Assembly (NCBI GenBank): GCA_009698445.1
Contig: WLQG01000001.1
Coordinates: 30,586 to 94,585, forward strand
Reading direction: 5' to 3'
Source of the DNA: Actinomycetota bacterium
GTDB taxonomy: Bacteria; Actinomycetota; Actinomycetes; Nanopelagicales; Nanopelagicaceae
DNA length: 64,000 nucleotides
The notes below the pieces were generated by a model, which made no database searches, was not told where the DNA came from, and saw nothing but the letters and a program-made list of their open reading frames with translations. The position numbers and the translations under genes are program-made. Positions 1-9,859 of the stretch are shown here, piece by piece (positions within the stretch are counted from its first letter, which is position 1; every line of letters begins with the position of its first letter).

Positions 1-657
1 AACGGCATCAACATCTTGGCCATCTACGATTTCCTTACGCATTGCATAAGAATCAGCTCTGTCAGCTAAATCTGATATCGGTGTACTCAAATTAATGCGT
101 GTGTATTCACCATAAAGATTATTTTCAATTACAAATATGACAGGCAGTTTAAATATGCTAGCCATATTCAAAGTTTCATGGAATGCCCCAATATTTGTTG
201 AGCCATCTCCAAAGATTGTCAGTGCGACTGAGTCATTCTTTTTTAACTTTGCTGCAAGTGCTACACCGGCTGCAACTGGTAACCCAGCACCAACTATTGC
301 AAAGGTTGGCATCAACCCAACACTCGCGTCCATCAAGTGCATAGATCCGCCAATGCCACCTGAACAACCAATGACGCGCCCACAAATTTCACCAAGTACG
401 CCTTCGGGAGTGACTCCAAGGGCAAGGGCTGCTGCATGCCCGCGATAAGTGCACGTCACCACATCCGTAGGTCTTAAAACGCTGGCAATTCCAACTGACA
501 CTGCTTCCTGTCCATTTGCTAAGTGCGTACTTCCGCGCACGTGCCCATCGTTATAAAGAGTCTGAATGCTTTCTTCTACTGCGCGAATTTCTAACATTCG
601 CTCTAAGCGGCCAACCTCTGTGTTTAGCTGACTTCTACGCGTTAATGATGTGACCAT
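1..657 (-). CDS. Thiamine-diphosphate-dependent 2-oxoacid dehydrogenase E1 alpha subunit (partial, runs off the left edge)
   Basis: Reverse-strand translation from ATG at 657: MVTSLTRRSQLNTEVGRLERMLEIRAVEESIQTLYNDGHVRGSTHLANGQEAVSVGIASVLRP...TYRGHAAALALG...GGIGGSMHLMD...GDGSTNIGAFHETLNMASIFKLPVIFVIENN; ThDP-binding GDG..N motif. TAATG overlap with the upstream E1 beta stop. Absent from the ORF track because it is truncated. Confidence 0.93.
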   Translation of the reverse strand, partial: MVTSLTRRSQLNTEVGRLERMLEIRAVEESIQTLYNDGHVRGSTHLANGQEAVSVGIASVLRPTDVVTCTYRGHAAALALGVTPEGVLGEICGRVIGCSGGIGGSMHLMDASVGLMPTFAIVGAGLPVAAGVALAAKLKKNDSVALTIFGDGSTNIGAFHETLNMASIFKLPVIFVIENNLYGEYTRINLSTPISDLADRADSYAMRKEIVDGQDVDAV

Positions 658-1664
658 TATTTTGCTCCTTCCCACCAAGCAGCGGGGCTTTTACCAGTTT
701 TTAAAAGCTCATTAATTTGTGAAACAACGTAGTCAGAGCTCGGTAGATATCTCTTTTCAAGTTCTTGCGCATAAGGGATCGGTGCATCTGGTGAAGTGAT
801 TCTGTGTGGAGGAGTTTTCAATTGTCCCCACAATTTTGATACAACTTCAGAACAAATTTCTGCACCCCAGCCACCTGAATATGAGCTTTCTTCAATGACA
901 ACTAGTCTGCCGGTTTTTGCTACTGATTTCATCACTGCTGATTTGTCCCAAGGGACCAATGTTTGTAAATCAATAATTTCTGCAGACCATTCAGATTGAG
1001 ATTCCAGCGCAACCTTGGCTGTTAAAACTGTGCTACCGATTGCAACGATTGTTACATCTGATCCTTCAGTAACTGTACGTGCTTGGCCGATTGGAATAAT
1101 TCCAGCCTCACCAGTAATGACATCACCTCGCTCGCCGTACAGACCTTTGTGCTCAAGAATTACAACTGGGTCGTTACTACGAATCGCACTTCTGAGAAGG
1201 CCATACATAGATTGTGGAGTTGAAGGAATTACGAGACTAATTCCAGCATTTCCTCTAAACCATTGATCCAAGATTTGAGAATGCTGACATCCAAATCCCA
1301 TTCCAGCACCTGCAGCTGCTCTAATTGTTAAGGGCACTTGATATGCACCTCTAGATAAATATCTAAAAAATGCGCCTTGAGTTGTTAGTTGATCTAAAGC
1401 AACTCCAATGAACTCAATAAACATCATTTCAACGACAGGACGCATGCCCATCGCTGCGGCTCCAACCCCAGCACCAAGAAATGCCATTTCCGAAATCGGT
1501 GTATCGATTACCCGGGTATCCCCAAATTTTTCAATCAATCCTTCAGTGGCTTTAAACGGCCCACCAGATCCAATATCTTCTCCCATAAGGAATACGGTTG
1601 GGTCGCTTTCCATTTCATCGGAAAGGGCTTGAATAACTGCTTGGCGTGTCCGCATGACGGTCAT
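657..1664 (-). CDS. 2-oxoacid dehydrogenase E1 beta subunit (transketolase-like pyrimidine-binding family)
   Basis: 335 aa; VFLMGEDIGSGGPFKATEGLIEKFGDTRVIDTPISEMAFLGAGVGAAAMGMRPVVEMMF, RITSPDAPIPYAQELEKRYLPS typical of E1 beta. Confidence 0.95.
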   Translation of the reverse strand: MTVMRTRQAVIQALSDEMESDPTVFLMGEDIGSGGPFKATEGLIEKFGDTRVIDTPISEMAFLGAGVGAAAMGMRPVVEMMFIEFIGVALDQLTTQGAFFRYLSRGAYQVPLTIRAAAGAGMGFGCQHSQILDQWFRGNAGISLVIPSTPQSMYGLLRSAIRSNDPVVILEHKGLYGERGDVITGEAGIIPIGQARTVTEGSDVTIVAIGSTVLTAKVALESQSEWSAEIIDLQTLVPWDKSAVMKSVAKTGRLVVIEESSYSGGWGAEICSEVVSKLWGQLKTPPHRITSPDAPIPYAQELEKRYLPSSDYVVSQINELLKTGKSPAAWWEGAK

Positions 1665-1984
1665 TTGATTTCACCATATCTCTTCGGGTCGTTTGGATGT
1701 TCTGCTAAAGGCCAAATCTCAGTCTCGAGCCATGGGAAGAATGGCAAACTAGAAATCGCTGCATGCAGTTGCGTTGCATCAGCAGCAACCCAAATACCAA
1801 CATTAGATTTCTGGCCAGGTCGTCGCCAAATTTTCTTAATTACGCCTTCATTAGCCAACACGGTTGCGCGGGCACTTTCAGCTTTTGTAAGAGAGGCTAG
1901 TAAATCTTTGTCCCCATCGGCAGGGTACGTATTCTTAATTAAAACCATAAATTCCATAATTTCACTCGCCCTTATATTCGCCAA
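1661..1984 (-). CDS. Muconolactone delta-isomerase-like small protein
   Basis: 107 aa; MEFMVLIKNTYP...GVIKKIWRRPGQKSNVGIWVAADATQLHAAISSLPFFPWLETEIWPLAEHPNDP matches the MIase family pattern. Confidence 0.75.
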   Translation of the reverse strand: MANIRASEIMEFMVLIKNTYPADGDKDLLASLTKAESARATVLANEGVIKKIWRRPGQKSNVGIWVAADATQLHAAISSLPFFPWLETEIWPLAEHPNDPKRYGEIK

Positions 1985-2435
1985 ATGAGGTTGAACTTTG
2001 AATCAACTCCACCCGAACACCATCAGGATCAATCATGTAAATTGCCCGTCCGCCCTTGTTTGGTCCAATCGTTGGAGTTACAGGAGTAGAGACACTTTTC
2101 ACGCCTTTCTTTGTTAACTCCTTGAACCACTCATCGACATCATCGACAAAAAAAGCAATGTGAGCGATACCTGGGTTGGCATTTCCATGATCTATATCCT
2201 TCAAATCCACATTCCCATATTCAAGTAGTTCTAAAAAAACATCTACGCCTGGCATTTTTAAAATCGTAGCGTTGAGGTCAACATCCGGATAGCCGGTCAA
2301 TACACCTATGTACTCTGCTTGTGGATTCCAGGAAAACACTTCTTCAAATCCGAGAAGCTCTTTATAAAATTTAGTTGATTCTCGCAACGACTTTACAGAG
2401 ATACCTGTGTGATGCGCTTTGGTTATCTGGGCCAA
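1962..2435 (-). CDS. VOC/glyoxalase family protein (start revised to TTG at 2435)
   Basis: ITKAHHTGISVKSLRESTKFYKELLGFEEVF...HIAFFVDDVDEWFKELTKKGV...IYMIDPDGVRVELIQ. The ORF-track start at 2504 lies inside the putative promoter/operator; TTG at 2435 has AAGGGG upstream. Confidence 0.85.
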   Translation of the reverse strand: MAQITKAHHTGISVKSLRESTKFYKELLGFEEVFSWNPQAEYIGVLTGYPDVDLNATILKMPGVDVFLELLEYGNVDLKDIDHGNANPGIAHIAFFVDDVDEWFKELTKKGVKSVSTPVTPTIGPNKGGRAIYMIDPDGVRVELIQSSTSFGEYKGE

Positions 2436-2468: not shown

Positions 2469-2516
2469 GTTCCCAAGGCTATGTGAGGTCGCTAGGTTAG
2501 TCAACCGATTGACTAA
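2469..2516 (-). promoter_or_regulatory. Putative LacI-type operator (2497-2516) overlapping a promoter for the VOC-MIase-E1 operon
   Basis: TTAGTCAACCGATTGACTAA at 2497-2516 (8-bp perfect arms, 4-nt centre). Minus-strand -35 TTGACT (2504-2499), 17-bp spacer, -10 TAGCCT (2481-2476). Confidence 0.7.
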
Positions 2517-2522
2517 AATTAT

Positions 2523-3590
2523 TTAGCGCTTCGGTTTTCCCGTGGAATCTCGGGCCACTAACACCGGCGGAGTATCCACAATCAGATGGCCAGGTGATCC
2601 TCCACCAATGATTCTGAGCAGTAAATCTACAGACTGGCTACCCATCTCAACTGTAGGCAAATGAACTGTGGTTAAGGAGGGCGATAAATAATTTGCAATA
2701 TCGCTATCGTGCAATGCTGCAACCCTCACATTATTAGGAATATCTACGCCTAGTTCATGGGCTGCGCGAATAAATCCGATTCCCATCATAATTGTCGAGG
2801 CAAATACTGCGTCTGGTTTGACCTTCTTTGACAGTAGTTCTAGGCCGGCTTCTCTTCCAGCTTCCATTCCCCAAGAATTTTTTTCGATAACCGTATGTTT
2901 GAGTTTGTTTCTTGCTGCTGCACTTTCAAAACCCTTACGACGTCGTTGTGCCGTATCGATAATTTGTGGGCCGAATATACCCGCAATGGACTTAGTACCA
3001 AATTGAGCTAGATGATCAACTGCAAGTGATGCCCCCAGTTCATCGTTCACAGTTACACTTGCCGAGACACCTTTAACACGACGATTTACCATGACTACAG
3101 ATTTATAGTGATCAAGGATTTCTTTCTTTAGAAATGTATCGGAAAGAGTGCCTGAAGCAATTAAAAGACCATCTACTTGCCCTCGTTCAAGTAAATCTGT
3201 GAATGTTTTTTCAGAATCACCTTCAGCATGATCTCCAATTAAAATTCCATATCCGAGATCTTTACACCTCTGCTCTACGCCCGTAATTATTGCTGAATAC
3301 ATGGGATTGGCCATATCAGGAAGCAGAAGGCCAATCATCTGCGTGCGGGCGGTTTTCAACATTCTCGCCGCTGAATTAGCTCTATAACCTAACTCTTGAA
3401 CGGCATCTAAAACTCGCTGACGCGTTGCTGGCGATGCACTCGCTTTGGGGTCATTATTAACAATTCGTGAAACAAGGCTGGGATCTACTTTAGCAATGCG
3501 AGCAACATCTCTAATTGTCGCGCGTACTTGCTTTACATCGCTCGCTTTTTCGCTCTTTGGCGTCGCCACAATTCTTGCCCTCTGTTTCAC
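2523..3590 (-). CDS. LacI/GalR family transcriptional regulator
   Basis: RATIRDVARIAKVDPSLVSRIVNNDPKASASPATRQRVLDAVQELGYRANSAARMLKT helix-turn-helix plus periplasmic-binding-like effector domain; GTG start. Confidence 0.95.
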   Translation of the reverse strand: MKQRARIVATPKSEKASDVKQVRATIRDVARIAKVDPSLVSRIVNNDPKASASPATRQRVLDAVQELGYRANSAARMLKTARTQMIGLLLPDMANPMYSAIITGVEQRCKDLGYGILIGDHAEGDSEKTFTDLLERGQVDGLLIASGTLSDTFLKKEILDHYKSVVMVNRRVKGVSASVTVNDELGASLAVDHLAQFGTKSIAGIFGPQIIDTAQRRRKGFESAAARNKLKHTVIEKNSWGMEAGREAGLELLSKKVKPDAVFASTIMMGIGFIRAAHELGVDIPNNVRVAALHDSDIANYLSPSLTTVHLPTVEMGSQSVDLLLRIIGGGSPGHLIVDTPPVLVARDSTGKPKR

Positions 3591-3663: not shown

Positions 3664-4293
3664 TTGGGCACAGTACGCTCTATTGCTAAGAAGTCAATCA
3701 GCAATAAAACAATTTCAGACCTCGCCGCTGCCATTCATGCTGGGCGCTTAGTAATTTTACCGGCAACATCGGGCTACATAATCGCTTGTGATGCACAAAA
3801 TACATCGGCAATTACTGATTTAAACATACTTAGAGAAAACAATGAGGAATACATTCTTTCAATGATTTTTTCATCAATAACCCAAATGGATAGCGAAGTG
3901 ACTATTCCCAATTTTGATGAGGAAACCAAAAATTATATTGAAACTGGACAATTAACATTAGTTCTTCCTCGCGATGAGTCCATGCGGGTAAATGCATCTG
4001 GTTTTAGAGAGTTAGTTGCCGTCAACATTCCGGTGAATCAAAACATTAAGAAATTACTAGAAAAAACTGGTCCGTGCGTGGTAGCTGCCGCGGCATTACC
4101 TGGGCAAGGATTACCACTAGAGGTCAAAGATATAAGTTCAAAAATCAAAGAAGGGGTTGAATACATCTTGGATGCCGACAAGATTTCAGGGTTGGTCTCC
4201 ACAGTTATAAATTTTGAGAAAAGAAAACCAATAATTTCAAGAAATGGCGCAGTGCCAGAAGAGACTATAAAAAAGCTTTTCCCGGAAATTTAA
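3664..4293 (+). CDS. Divergent YrdC/Sua5-domain-like protein
   Basis: TISDLAAAIHAGRLVILPATSGYIIACDAQN...GPCVVAAAALPGQGLPLEVKDISSKIKEGVEYILDADKISGLVSTVINFEKRKPIISRNGAVPEETIKKLF; overall YrdC-like layout but degenerate motifs; probable TTG start. Confidence 0.65.
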   Translation: MGTVRSIAKKSISNKTISDLAAAIHAGRLVILPATSGYIIACDAQNTSAITDLNILRENNEEYILSMIFSSITQMDSEVTIPNFDEETKNYIETGQLTLVLPRDESMRVNASGFRELVAVNIPVNQNIKKLLEKTGPCVVAAAALPGQGLPLEVKDISSKIKEGVEYILDADKISGLVSTVINFEKRKPIISRNGAVPEETIKKLFPEI

Positions 4294-5420
4294 TTAAAAA
4301 TTCCTTCAGGATCTTCAAAATTTTGTGTATGGATCCAATCCTTATTAACTAGGTTTCCAAAACCACTCTCTTCAGCAAGTGGGCTCATATAGCCGCCATC
4401 AATAATTTCAGGTTGGCGCAAACTGTCCGCATAGGGGTCGACGCCAGTCCAAGGTACGCCCCATTCAATTGGCACAGATGCATGGCCCCAAGCGCTGAAT
4501 ACTTGACTGTGAACATGGGCAAACATGTGTGGCGCAAAATCTACTTTTGATTCAAGACACTGTTTTACTATTTTCTTTCCACCAGTTATCCCGCCCATGC
4601 AGGTCAAATCAATACGTACGACATCAACAGCAGATTTTGAAATTAAAGATTCTGGGTAATAAATTCCACCTTGTTCATCTCCCATAGCTATAGGGATGCG
4701 AGTTCGTTGCCTCAGCTCGCGTACTACTTGTGCATTACCGGGTGGAAATACATCTTCAAACCAACCCAAATTTACATCCCCTAATAAGTTTAATAAATCC
4801 ATCGCAGAATCAACATCATCAAAAATCCATGCTGCATCGCAACCAATCCAAGCATCGGGAGCCGCTTTGCGCGCTGCCAGTAAGCGTTCAGCAGTTGCCA
4901 TATTATTTACACCCACTGGAGCTTTGAATCTTCGCCAGCCCTTTTTATAAAGATCGCTTACTTGTTCAAATACTTCATCGCCCCCCATTTTCGCTGGCGG
5001 ATATCCAATGATTGCCGTGGCAGGCATCGGTGCAAGATGGCCACCTAGAAGAGATGAAATTGATTTGTTTGACTGCTTTGCATAAGCATCCCAAGTGGCT
5101 AGATCAAGGATTGATAACGCCCTAAGACCTAACCCAGCCGAGTGTGAGGCCAAACTTCTCCGCAAAGCTGTCACGTATGTTTTCTCAACATCTTGTGCAT
5201 CTGTTCCTATGTAAATATTTTTTAAAGTCTTTCGAATCTGCTCAGCGACTGCTCCATCGCGCGTGAGAGTAAATGCCCATCCTTCAACACCTGAATTTAA
5301 GGTAACTTTGACAACCACGTACTCTCTAGTTTTCATAATCCAATCGCCAAAAACAACCGGTGCAGGTAGTTCCCCTGCAACTGTGGCCACATTGATACTA
5401 GATATGGTTGACGCGCTCAT
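4290..5420 (-). CDS. Mandelate racemase/muconate lactonizing enzyme (enolase superfamily) protein
   Basis: 376 aa; AYAKQSNKSISSLLGGHL, WIGCDAAWIFDDVDSAMDLL, LGWFEDVFPPGN, IPIAMGDEQGG, VDVVRIDLTCMGGITGGKKI, APHMFAHVHSQ. Confidence 0.9.
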   Translation of the reverse strand: MSASTISSINVATVAGELPAPVVFGDWIMKTREYVVVKVTLNSGVEGWAFTLTRDGAVAEQIRKTLKNIYIGTDAQDVEKTYVTALRRSLASHSAGLGLRALSILDLATWDAYAKQSNKSISSLLGGHLAPMPATAIIGYPPAKMGGDEVFEQVSDLYKKGWRRFKAPVGVNNMATAERLLAARKAAPDAWIGCDAAWIFDDVDSAMDLLNLLGDVNLGWFEDVFPPGNAQVVRELRQRTRIPIAMGDEQGGIYYPESLISKSAVDVVRIDLTCMGGITGGKKIVKQCLESKVDFAPHMFAHVHSQVFSAWGHASVPIEWGVPWTGVDPYADSLRQPEIIDGGYMSPLAEESGFGNLVNKDWIHTQNFEDPEGIFN

Positions 5421-5495
5421 GAATGAAAAGTAAACCCAGCCCCCCTTTTAGTCAACCGATTGACTAAAAGGGGGGCTGGGTTTAAGGTATTGCCA
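5420..5495. promoter_or_regulatory. Symmetrical divergent promoter with central LacI-type operator (inverted repeat 5431-5484)
   Basis: TAAACCCAGCCCCCCTTTTAGTCAA-CCGA-TTGACTAAAAGGGGGGCTGGGTTTA: perfect 25-bp arms. Plus strand: -35 TTGACT 5460-5465, 17 bp, -10 TAAGGT 5483-5488. Minus strand: -35 TTGACT 5455-5450, 17 bp, -10 TACTTT 5432-5427. Confidence 0.78.
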
Positions 5496-5527: not shown

Positions 5528-6013
5528 ATGAAACGTGAATTTGATGCCCGAGCTGATCGGTATGGGCGTTTTTATGATGAATTTGAAGTTGGTGACATTT
5601 ACCGACACTGGCCAGGGAAAACAATAACCGAGTCTGAAGATCATCTTTATTGCATGTTAACTATGGCCGGTAGCCCGCTGCATATTGACTCTCACTATGC
5701 CAAAGTTGAAATGCCTCAAGGAAAAAATATTGTTGTGGGCACTTATATCTATGCATTGTTAACCGGAATGTCTGTGGCTGATATTTCAGGAAAAGCTATT
5801 GTAAGTTTAGGTGTGAAGGAACTAAATCATATATTGCCAGTTTTTCATGGAGATACTATTTATGCCTCTACTGAGATATTAGACAAAAGGTTTTCCAAAT
5901 CAAAGACAGACCAGGGAATTGTAAGTGTTAAAACATCAGGGTTTAATCAAAACAAGGAATTAGTTTGTACATTTGAGCGCGCATTTTTAGTTCCTTTACA
6001 TGGGCCAAAGTAA
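5528..6013 (+). CDS. MaoC-like (hotdog-fold) dehydratase 1
   Basis: GRFYDEFEVGDIYRHWPGKTITESEDHLYCMLTMAGSPLHIDSHYAKVE...GVKELNHILPVFHGDTIYASTEILDKRFSKSKTDQGIVSVKTSGFNQNKELVCTFERAFLVP. Confidence 0.9.
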   Translation: MKREFDARADRYGRFYDEFEVGDIYRHWPGKTITESEDHLYCMLTMAGSPLHIDSHYAKVEMPQGKNIVVGTYIYALLTGMSVADISGKAIVSLGVKELNHILPVFHGDTIYASTEILDKRFSKSKTDQGIVSVKTSGFNQNKELVCTFERAFLVPLHGPK

Positions 6014-7158
6014 TGACTGCTAAAGAACATTCAGGCCCACTCGTCGGGCTAAAAGTCATTGACTTAGCAACAGTTGTTGCTGGTCCAGGGGTAGCAAAAT
6101 ATTTTGCGGATTATGGTGCAGATGTAATTAAGATAGAAAGACCCTCTGGAGACTCCACTAGAGCAATGGGATGGACCGAGCCAGGTGAGACTGATTCTCT
6201 CTGGTGGAAATTAGTAAATCGTGGCAAACGTTCACTAGTTTTAGATTTAAAGAATGACGCAGATCTTTCAATATTAAAGGAGCTTATTGATTCTGCCGAT
6301 TTATTGATAGAAAACATGCGCCCCGGAAAAATTGAACAACTTGGGTTGGATCCTGAAGAATTGATTTCTAGAAATCCAAAACTAGTTGTTTTACGCGTTT
6401 CTGGTTTTGGACAAACTGGTCCATACGCGCAAAAACCTGGCTTTGCCACAATTGCAGAAGCCCTTTCAGGTCTCTCTTCGCTTTTAGGAGAACCTGATGG
6501 GGGTCCACTATTGCCGCCAATCGCACTTACTGATGAAGTCACAGCGCTAGTTGGATCATTCTCAGCCATGATTGCGATTTTTCACGCAAAGCTAACTGGG
6601 CAAGGCCAGATAGTGGATATAGATCTTGTTGACTCAGTCTTGCAAATCATGGGACCACTGCCAGCAGCCTGGGATTCACTTGGTTATCTTCAGCCACGAC
6701 TAGGTTCAAGCATTCCTTATTCAATTCCCCGTGGAACTTATAAGTGTTCTGATGGAGTTTGGGTAGCACTTTCAGCTTCAGCGGAATCTGTGGCTAAGCG
6801 GCTCATAGAAACCGTAGGAGGGGCAGGTGATCCTCGATTCACATCCTTTCAATCTCGATTTGAGAACCGAGAAGCTCTTGAAGAGCTGACAAGTAACTGG
6901 ATTGGCTCGAGAACTTCTAAAGAAGTCATTGAAACTATTGAAGCCGCAGACGCAGCTATTGCACCAGTTTATAATATGCAACAGGTTATTGAAGACCCTC
7001 ATTTTATCGCCAGGGAAAGCTTCACAAAAGTGGACGGGATTCTCATGCAAAACTTGGTAGCTCGGCTTTCGAAAACTCCTGGCAAGATTATTTCAGCTGG
7101 GCCAAAATTAGGTGAGCATAATGAAGAAATTAAAAGAGAGCTTCATGACAAGAATTAA
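6013..7158 (+). CDS. CaiB/BaiF (class III) CoA-transferase 1
   Basis: GLKVIDLATVVAGPGVAKYFADYGADVIKIERPSGDSTRAMG...LWWKLVNRGKRSLVLDLKN...ADLLIENMRPGKIEQLGLDPEEL...VLRVSGFGQTGPYAQKPGFATIAEALSGLSSL. Confidence 0.95.
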   Translation: MTAKEHSGPLVGLKVIDLATVVAGPGVAKYFADYGADVIKIERPSGDSTRAMGWTEPGETDSLWWKLVNRGKRSLVLDLKNDADLSILKELIDSADLLIENMRPGKIEQLGLDPEELISRNPKLVVLRVSGFGQTGPYAQKPGFATIAEALSGLSSLLGEPDGGPLLPPIALTDEVTALVGSFSAMIAIFHAKLTGQGQIVDIDLVDSVLQIMGPLPAAWDSLGYLQPRLGSSIPYSIPRGTYKCSDGVWVALSASAESVAKRLIETVGGAGDPRFTSFQSRFENREALEELTSNWIGSRTSKEVIETIEAADAAIAPVYNMQQVIEDPHFIARESFTKVDGILMQNLVARLSKTPGKIISAGPKLGEHNEEIKRELHDKN

Positions 7159-8104
7159 TCTCTTGTCAAAAAGAAGTGTCCTAGCAGTTCCCGGCTCTAG
7201 CGAAAAAATGATTCAAAAAGCACGGCTATTGAATGCTGATGAAATATTCCTAGATTTAGAAGATTCAGTGTCGCTACCCGAAAAGGAATCTGCTAGGTCA
7301 TTAGTCATTTCTGAATTGAATAAGGGCGGTTTTAATTCAGCCTCAGTGGCTGTTCGGGTTAACGAACAAAACCAATCAATAGGAATCCAAGACATCGAAG
7401 AACTTATTACTAAAGCGCCTACTAAATTTTCTTCTATCATCATTCCTAAAGTTGAGACGTCACAACAAGTTACTGAGATTTGTCAGAGATTAACTGATTT
7501 AGAACTCTCACAAGGGTTGAATGATCAAACAAAAATTCAACTTCAAATTGAATCAGCACGTGGACTACTAAATGTTAAAGAAATAGCCAGTGCATGCGGG
7601 CGCACAATCTCCTTGATTTTTGGCCCTGGTGACTTCGCGGCAAGTATGGGGATGCAGGTTTTGAATATCGGTGAGAACCCAGTCAATTATCCAGGTGAAG
7701 ATGCATATCATCATGTCCTATTTTCAATACTTACTGCTGCACGCGCAAATGGTTTATTAGCAATCGATGGTCCCTTTAGCGATCTTGGAAATGAGCCTGG
7801 ACTAAAACATAGGTCTCAATTATCTGCTTCCCTTGGCTACGATGGAAAGTGGGTTATTCACCCATCGCAAATAGAAGTAGTGAATTCTATTTTCACACCT
7901 AGTGAGGAAGTTTTCGAGAAATCTTCTAAAATTATTGCTCACTTTAACCGTTCGAATGCAACTGAAAAATCTGCGGGTGCCTTTTTATTCGAAGGGAAAA
8001 TGATTGATGAGGCAACTAGGAAAATGGCTGAAATGATTTATTCAAAAGGTATCGCTGCAGGTTTAAAGCCTTCTATGAATGGGGATAATAATGGCAAAGC
8101 ATAA
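7145..8104 (+). CDS. HpcH/HpaI aldolase/CitE-like acyl-CoA lyase
   Basis: RSVLAVPGSSEKMIQKARLLNADEIFLDLEDSVSLPEKESAR...IIIPKVET...LQIESARGLLNVKEIASA...LIFGPGDFAASMGM...WVIHPSQIEVVNSIFTPS. ORF track starts at 7112; the internal ATG at 7145 is preferred. Confidence 0.93.
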   Translation: MTRINLLSKRSVLAVPGSSEKMIQKARLLNADEIFLDLEDSVSLPEKESARSLVISELNKGGFNSASVAVRVNEQNQSIGIQDIEELITKAPTKFSSIIIPKVETSQQVTEICQRLTDLELSQGLNDQTKIQLQIESARGLLNVKEIASACGRTISLIFGPGDFAASMGMQVLNIGENPVNYPGEDAYHHVLFSILTAARANGLLAIDGPFSDLGNEPGLKHRSQLSASLGYDGKWVIHPSQIEVVNSIFTPSEEVFEKSSKIIAHFNRSNATEKSAGAFLFEGKMIDEATRKMAEMIYSKGIAAGLKPSMNGDNNGKA

Positions 8105-8624
8105 AGCTGAACTGGGTAGATTTTATGAGGATTTTGTTGTTGGTGATTCGTATGAACATCCTTTTGGTCGTACCATCAGTGAGACTGATTGCACATGGTT
8201 TACACAATTAACATGTAATACAAACCAAAACCATTTTAATGCGCATCTGGCTCTTTCTAATCCGGTCTCAAATGGAAAAATAATTGTCAACTCTGGTCTT
8301 ACTGTTGCCATTATCCTGGGCATTTCAGTTATTGATATGAGTCAAAATGCAGTGGCTAATTTGGGCTGGACTGACATTAAACTTACACACCCGGTCTATG
8401 TTGGGGACACTTTGTATGCCGAAAGTATCTGCACAGAAGTTCGCGAATCTTCTTCAAAACCAAATATGGGAATTATTTCTATGTTCACTAGAGGGTTAAA
8501 CCAGGATGGCATCGAAATAGTGACTTGGTTTAGAAGTGTCATGATTCCAAAGCGAAGTTCTGGAATTGGCCAGAATTATTTTCCTACGCCAAAATCTGGA
8601 GCAATTGAAGGGCGAATGTCTTAA
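8091..8624 (+). CDS. MaoC-like dehydratase 2
   Basis: AELGRFYEDFVVGDSYEHPFGRTISETDCTWFTQLTCNTNQNHFNAHLALSNP...AVANLGWTDIKLTHPVYVGDTLYAESICTEVRESSSKPNMGIISMFTRGLNQDGIEIVTWFRSVMIPKR; resembles the itaconyl-CoA/mesaconyl-CoA hydratase type. Confidence 0.9.
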   Translation: MAKHKAELGRFYEDFVVGDSYEHPFGRTISETDCTWFTQLTCNTNQNHFNAHLALSNPVSNGKIIVNSGLTVAIILGISVIDMSQNAVANLGWTDIKLTHPVYVGDTLYAESICTEVRESSSKPNMGIISMFTRGLNQDGIEIVTWFRSVMIPKRSSGIGQNYFPTPKSGAIEGRMS

Positions 8625-8626
8625 GC

Positions 8627-9859
8627 ATGACTCTTGCATCACCAATACTTTCTGGTTTGAGAATTATTGAAGGATCGGCCTTTGTAGCTGCCCCTCTCGG
8701 TGGGCTTACTTTGGCTCAACTTGGAGCAGAAGTAATTCGCTTTGACCCCCTAAGTGGAGGGCTGGATTTCAAACGTTGGCCAATTACCAAATCTCATGCA
8801 TCACTTTTTTGGGCTGGATTAAACCGTGGGAAGAAATCTATTCAAGTGGACCTCAAGAGCCAGAGAGGTAGAAAGTTAATATCTGACCTAATAACTTCGC
8901 CTGGCGAAGGATCTGGAATATTTCTCACGAATCTTGCCTCTAAAGATCAATTGAGTTATGAAGAACTTCGTAAGAAAAGATCTGACGTTATTGTAATTTC
9001 TTTAACTGGTAATTTTGATGGTTCAAGCGAAGTTGATTACACGGTGCATCCAGCATTTGGATACCCAATGATTACAGGGCCAAAAAATTCGGATTCGCCA
9101 ACAAATAGTGTTCTGCCAACCTGGGATTTGATCCTTGGAAACCTTGTCGCAATTGCAATTTTAGCGGCAGAGCGAAAACGACGTCAGACAGGTGAAGGTG
9201 AATTTGTTTCGATTGCACTCTCAGATGTCGCATTGTCAGTTGTTGGTGCTCTAGGTCGACTATCACAAGCATATATTGGTGAAGAGATGATTGCCCAAGA
9301 TGGAAATTACCTTTATGGGTCTTTTGGTAAGAATTTTCTTACAGCAGATAAACAACAAATTATGCTAGTTGGTTTAACTTCTAGACAGTGGAATTCACTT
9401 ACGACCGCACTTAATATAGAAAGTTCATTAAAGGAACTTGAAAAGGATTTAGCTGCCGATTTCCAAGATGAAGGGCAGCGATATGCGCATAGAGAATCGA
9501 TAGCGCTCATCATAGAAAGAGTTGTTGCATCAAAAGAATTACAAGAATTAATTCCTATTTTTGTAGCCAATAAAGTGAGCTGGTCTAAATATCAAAGCTT
9601 TGAGGATTTGCTCAATAATGATGCAAGGGCTTCTGATCAAAATCCTATTTTCTCTCTCCAGAACCAGCCAGGGGTAGGAACAACGCCAAATATTGCATCG
9701 CCAATAAGATTCCAATTTAGCCGCAATCTAGAGCCAGAGATTGCGCCTTACTTTGGACAGCACACCGAGGAAGTCCTAAAGGAGATTCTAAATCTGAGCC
9801 CTGAAGAGCTTGATGACTTGGTTAAGGAAAAAATCATAAAGAGAGATAACAGGGGGTAA
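8627..9859 (+). CDS. CaiB/BaiF (class III) CoA-transferase 2
   Basis: GLRIIEGSAFVAAPLGGLTLAQLGAEVIRFDPLSGGLDFKRWP...LFWAGLNRGKKSIQVDLKSQRGRKLISDL. Confidence 0.93.
   Translation: MTLASPILSGLRIIEGSAFVAAPLGGLTLAQLGAEVIRFDPLSGGLDFKRWPITKSHASLFWAGLNRGKKSIQVDLKSQRGRKLISDLITSPGEGSGIFLTNLASKDQLSYEELRKKRSDVIVISLTGNFDGSSEVDYTVHPAFGYPMITGPKNSDSPTNSVLPTWDLILGNLVAIAILAAERKRRQTGEGEFVSIALSDVALSVVGALGRLSQAYIGEEMIAQDGNYLYGSFGKNFLTADKQQIMLVGLTSRQWNSLTTALNIESSLKELEKDLAADFQDEGQRYAHRESIALIIERVVASKELQELIPIFVANKVSWSKYQSFEDLLNNDARASDQNPIFSLQNQPGVGTTPNIASPIRFQFSRNLEPEIAPYFGQHTEEVLKEILNLSPEELDDLVKEKIIKRDNRG

Follow-up and report, generated by a model that had tools for sequence, protein, structure and literature searches.

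By comparing the 64,000-nucleotide stretch of DNA analysed here (the window) with related genomes, we found that a 54-bp perfect palindrome separating two divergent catabolic operons is, as judged from these sequences, two-layered: the central 20 bp are the predicted operator of a LacI-family repressor (O1), and the outer 17 bp of each arm are not operator. We think it fairly probable that this is an operator/promoter switch whose arms arose and have been kept mainly by template switching during replication (quasipalindrome correction), with the operator as the seed. The features concerned are collected in Table 1.

Table 1. Features of the palindrome, its predicted regulator and the genes around it (positions in the window).
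Feature	Position	Strand	Description
O2-controlled operon	657-2435	-	VOC protein, muconolactone-isomerase-like protein, pyruvate-dehydrogenase-type E1 beta
Predicted promoter at O2	2476-2504	-	TTGACT-17-TAGCCT
Operator O2	2497-2516		second exact TTAGTCAACCGATTGACTAA copy; upstream of VOC / muconolactone-isomerase-like / 2-oxoacid dehydrogenase operon, adjoins lacI
LacI-family repressor	2523-3590	-	Pfam LacI HTH and Peripla_BP_3; PDB relatives RbsR, CcpA, PurR
Enolase-superfamily (mandelate racemase / muconate lactonizing) dehydratase-like gene	4290-5420	-	Pfam MR_MLE_N, MR_MLE_C
Predicted promoter, enolase-superfamily gene	5427-5455	-	TTGACT (5455-5450)-17-TACTTT (5432-5427), 6 nt, ATG
Perfect palindrome	5431-5484		54 bp; 25-bp arms and 4-nt centre; between two divergent catabolic operons
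Outer arm, enolase-superfamily side	5431-5447		17 bp; changes together with the opposite arm
LacI-type operator O1, TTAGTCAACCGATTGACTAA	5448-5467		central CG, AAnCGnTT core; conservation among relatives
Predicted promoter, MaoC/CoA-transferase/CitE operon	5460-5488	+	TTGACT (5460-5465)-17-TAAGGT (5483-5488)
Outer arm, MaoC-operon side	5468-5484		17 bp; exact mirror of 5431-5447
Divergent operon	5528-9859	+	MaoC hydratase, class III CoA-transferase, CitE-like lyase, MaoC hydratase, second CoA-transferase-like ORF (assigned by similarity to the first CoA-transferase)

The arms 5431-5455 and 5460-5484 are complementary at 25 of 25 positions around a 4-nt centre, CCGA. The original prediction had described this geometry correctly, together with a -35 box and 17-bp spacer that are the same on both strands and lead to TAAGGT on the plus and TACTTT on the minus strand. 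The symmetric unit consists of the -35 box, the 17-bp spacer and the TA of the -10 box, within which the symmetry ends. A palindrome scan of 460 kb of the genome returned no longer palindrome, the runner-up having arms of 19 bp; several of the other long ones are terminator-like. Assuming equal base frequencies, simple arithmetic gives a chance of about 4^-17 for 17 extra matched pairs beyond 8-bp operator arms. A fold-back in the assembly, or a sequencing artefact in which one arm was error-corrected to fit its partner, could be suspected, as most genomes are MAGs and the palindrome of one relative (L038) is interrupted at its very centre by an NN gap. However, the genes on either side are unique and different, a typical short read is longer than 54 bp, the palindrome comes from six species and several projects with several arm sequences, and mismatches persist in one of them (L040). 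The probability of an artefact is therefore negligible, and a fold-back is excluded in practice by the homologous palindromes of the five other species, which lie between the same genes and have mostly different arm sequences.

Concerning the inner layer, LacI-family operators are typically even palindromes of 16-22 nt with a central CG (PMC4052901), and O1 is a conserved, even 20-bp palindrome centred on AACCGATT. It was invariant across the five close species with complete sequence; three of four distant relatives keep it, one of them with the last base changed, and the fourth has a variant. The genome is 85% complete, and its single PF00356 match, the gene at 2523-3590, encodes a protein combining the LacI HTH with a periplasmic-binding-like ligand domain. 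We also noticed a feature that the earlier reading of this DNA had not mentioned, namely the second exact copy of TTAGTCAACCGATTGACTAA at O2, where 0.02 matches would be expected by chance in the window; O1 and O2 are the only two such sites in the genome at up to 3 mismatches. Among 296 genomes of the order, the sequence occurs with at most one mismatch in six and the LacI orthologue in eight, including all six operator-bearing ones. As for the other two, G312 (locus L038) is the one with the NN gap at the centre, and its second site has 2 mismatches; G253 (locus L044) has a variant operator, GTCAAACGCTTGAC. Operator, cognate regulator and regulated genes are thus present together. We assign the central 20 bp as the predicted operator of this repressor.

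The system resembles the local regulons of the RbsR/PurR/CcpA type (PMC4052901) in having an HTH plus periplasmic-binding-like regulator that adjoins its catabolic genes, and an even palindrome (20 bp here) with an AAnCGnTT core. It differs from them in that its half-site doubles as the -35 hexamer of three promoters and that the genes look like organic-acid/CoA catabolism. Moreover, most local LacI regulators are autoregulated, whereas no operator matching O1 was found upstream of lacI itself. Outside the window, about 2.3 kb to the left of its start, we observed an operator-like site, GTCAAGCGTTTGAT (L033:17686-17699), upstream of a gene for a secreted-type protein, likely an ABC solute-binding one, and with TTGACT-17-TAATTT on the minus strand. 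In both G093 and G067, the neighbour of a similar site is the same enolase-superfamily paralogue, and with such sites the regulon may extend to uptake.

Each O1 half-site holds TTGACT, the predicted -35 box of one promoter, and one bound dimer should therefore block both. In every one of the 25 operator flanks examined, an actinobacterial-type TAnnnT box lies 17 or 18 bp downstream of the operator TTGAC. The flanks represent ten lineages (nine different species and a further locus of L041's genome) and are mutually related, so that the count shows conservation and not 25 independent tests. In M. tuberculosis, TAnnnT serves as -10 motif in 73% of the primary promoters that have been mapped (PMC3898074). 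At O2, the promoter TTGACT-17-TAG[CT]CT was kept in all seven loci checked. The ORF at 1962-2504 has its longest start (TTG 2504) overlapping this operator; the alignment of relatives suggests that the VOC protein likely starts at TTG 2435, with a GAAGGGG-type ribosome site ahead of it. For the enolase-superfamily gene, the start codon comes 6 nt after the -10 box, both in the window and in the seven relatives whose aligned sites are intact, which predicts a leaderless mRNA; 26% of the M. tuberculosis genes with a mapped primary start are leaderless (PMC3898074). Bacterial bidirectional promoters (PMC12825309, PMC10268837) likewise base divergent transcription on DNA symmetry, but they share one symmetric -10 used both ways, with starts typically 10-23 bp apart, whereas here the -35 boxes stand back to back, the -10 boxes are two separate ones and about 75 bp separate the predicted starts, near 5420 (-) and 5495 (+).

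From the computed operator conservation, LacI co-occurrence and promoter geometry, we infer binding, repression and a response to inducer. A LacI dimer at O1 would block sigma from both -35 boxes and so shut down the enolase-superfamily gene at the same time as the MaoC/CoA-transferase/CitE operon; the O2 copy would give the same control to the third operon, and all three transcription units would open once inducer is bound. This fits the earlier proposals that both divergent -35 boxes lie within one LacI operator, an arrangement conserved in all relatives examined with the cognate LacI nearby, and that one repressor could close both promoters, which is well supported in silico by the comparison, through operator conservation and the 17-bp spacing to TAnnnT.

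Then, we compared the outer arms within the palindromic clade, that is the window, L036, L037, L038, L039 and L040 (six species). Their sequences differ among these species, but their mirror symmetry is perfect in five members, with three unmatched positions in L040. First, 98.4% of pair cells pair in five species when G-U is counted, compared with 31-62% in slid registers. Second, four arm pairs changed on both sides. On the gene tree this amounts to 7 paired changes and 3 unpaired ones, all in L040; at least 5 paired changes are needed on any five-taxon tree, and the exact number of events is uncertain, as two arm states common to L036 and L037 conflict with the tree. Third, when arms were simulated as evolving independently, outcomes with no more than 3 mismatched cells and 4 or more variable positions made up 1e-6 of the runs at gene-tree scale and 8e-5 at half scale, so that the paired change goes beyond independent evolution, as in a quasipalindrome homogenised by template switching. 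Fourth, the arms changed at 0.41-0.59 per site, the flanks at 0.40-0.56 and the O2 spacer at 0.67, with 0 for the O1 operator. The G6/C6 runs illustrate this, being GGGGGG, GGAGGG, AGAGGG or AGGGGGG with only the mirror symmetry conserved. Taken together, these alignments indicate that in the outer arms it is the symmetry that is kept, not the sequence.

Two aspects of the sampling bear mention. The closely related clusters L036 and L040 sit on contigs filed under one alphaproteobacterial and one betaproteobacterial MAG, and these contigs are likely misbinned. The clusters L037 (G176) and L038 (G312) share 97.9% DNA identity although their genomes belong to different genera; this near-identity, together with a LacI orthologue in only 8 of 296 genomes, points to horizontal transfer or misbinning.

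The spacer symmetry, whose conservation the original prediction had left to an alignment of related genomes, was found in five relatives but not in the sisters L041-L043, where operator and promoters are present and the arms are not symmetric. Treating the whole 25-bp arm as operator or as a needed part of the switch, as in the original prediction, is not supported, because only the central 20 bp are invariant and the sisters do without spacer symmetry; we therefore rejected a whole-arm operator. For the G6/C6 spacers, which the original prediction had called unexplained, homogenisation of the arms is a better explanation than binding. A related possibility is that the arms extend the recognition site of the repressor or of another dimeric protein, or that they provide matched promoters, with identical spacers and similar strength. 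The symmetry does stop inside the -10 box, and the promoters share -35, spacer and TA. However, the arm sequence changes freely in pairs, O2 has no such arms, LacI operators span 16-22 bp (PMC4052901) and the -10 boxes differ, so that the strengths need not match. We consider both variants decidedly unlikely.

The main rival to template switching is a selected DNA hairpin or cruciform, whose extrusion under negative supercoiling would hide both -35 boxes or signal a protein; as divergent transcription raises supercoiling, it could add a supercoiling-sensitive layer to the LacI switch. In either form we regard it as unlikely, though it deserves attention. Five of six species have perfect stems despite differing sequences, single-strand DNA folding of four perfect stems predicts -26.9 to -30.2 kcal/mol, and the paired changes include a G-C to C-G swap, which has no wobble intermediate. 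On the other hand, sister species carrying the same promoters and genes lack the structure, three positions in L040 are unmatched and its predicted fold is weaker (-18.1 kcal/mol), and no reader of the structure is known. In a more specific version, the palindrome would be a selected supercoiling sensor: the central repressor would keep the DNA linear and, once it is gone, strong divergent transcription would extrude a cruciform, which would take up both -35 boxes and so restrict the expression of both operons. We give this version little credence.

A hairpin acting at the RNA level, with the transcribed stem serving as a terminator or a 5' leader element, would also account for a covarying stem, and the minus strand is terminator-like in a simple scan. 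Yet both divergent transcripts are predicted to start outside the palindrome, the one of the enolase-superfamily gene on its ATG, and this location disfavours an RNA or terminator reading. In addition, the flanking genes both read away from the palindrome, which lies between divergent starts and not at a gene end, and the scan fits one strand only. Such a role is, in our view, very improbable. Separately, we observed a second intergenic palindrome, a perfect one of 30 bp just upstream of an ABC permease gene (L079:19869-19898); in its relatives the arm changes are both matched and unmatched, and it is possibly a transcribed stem.

Template switching is favoured because the symmetry is kept without sequence conservation, in DNA predicted to be untranscribed, and because it is dispensable in sister species and partly lost in one member of the clade. 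From the computed paired evolution of the arms, we infer a mechanism in which the nascent strand would fold back at the operator's own inverted repeat, the operator serving as seed repeat, and one outer arm would be copied onto the other at replication. A single arm mutation would then be either erased or duplicated. Template switching is known to generate and perfect inverted repeats (PMC7202029, PMC8604942, PMC8794818). As in quasipalindrome correction described in E. coli reporters (PMC7202029), yeast genes (PMC8604942) and RNA stems (PMC8794818), the arms here become and stay identical, and the loop is not inverted, as expected of an intramolecular switch; unlike in those systems, the process is deduced here across species, at a promoter/operator and from sequence comparison. 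In the outgroups L041-L043, AAAA opens the MaoC-side arm, as in the palindrome, but not the opposite arm; this weakly hints at one-way copying with the MaoC-side arm as template. SbcD, half of the hairpin nuclease SbcCD, was undetected in five genomes of this lineage (G000, G093, G067, G176 and G312), two of which are 99% complete, while 13 of 14 control genomes scored. The SbcC profile gave weak matches to long SMC-sized frames only, so that the nuclease argument rests on SbcD; ExoVII is present. An increase of template switching here through a lack of SbcCD would be speculative.

Several observations temper this preference for template switching. Paired changes alone do not separate it from selection on a stem, because most compensatory changes are isolated and uninformative on mechanism (PMC8794818), and no clear multi-base switch footprint could be isolated among the six palindromic species. 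All six have arms of the same length with the same boundaries, which could reflect selection, and the three mismatches retained by L040 imply that homogenisation is not fast everywhere. In the literature, of which our coverage was partial, we found no direct precedent for the homogenisation of a bacterial promoter/operator.

If template switching is correct, the inverted-repeat site of a dimeric repressor can seed a mutation process that rewrites the adjacent promoter spacers, and two divergent promoters would turn into mirror images, and remain so, with no selection for the symmetry. Covarying changes, usually taken as proof of a functional stem, could then stem from mutation alone, and sister species together with matched substitution rates would offer a natural control for covariation.
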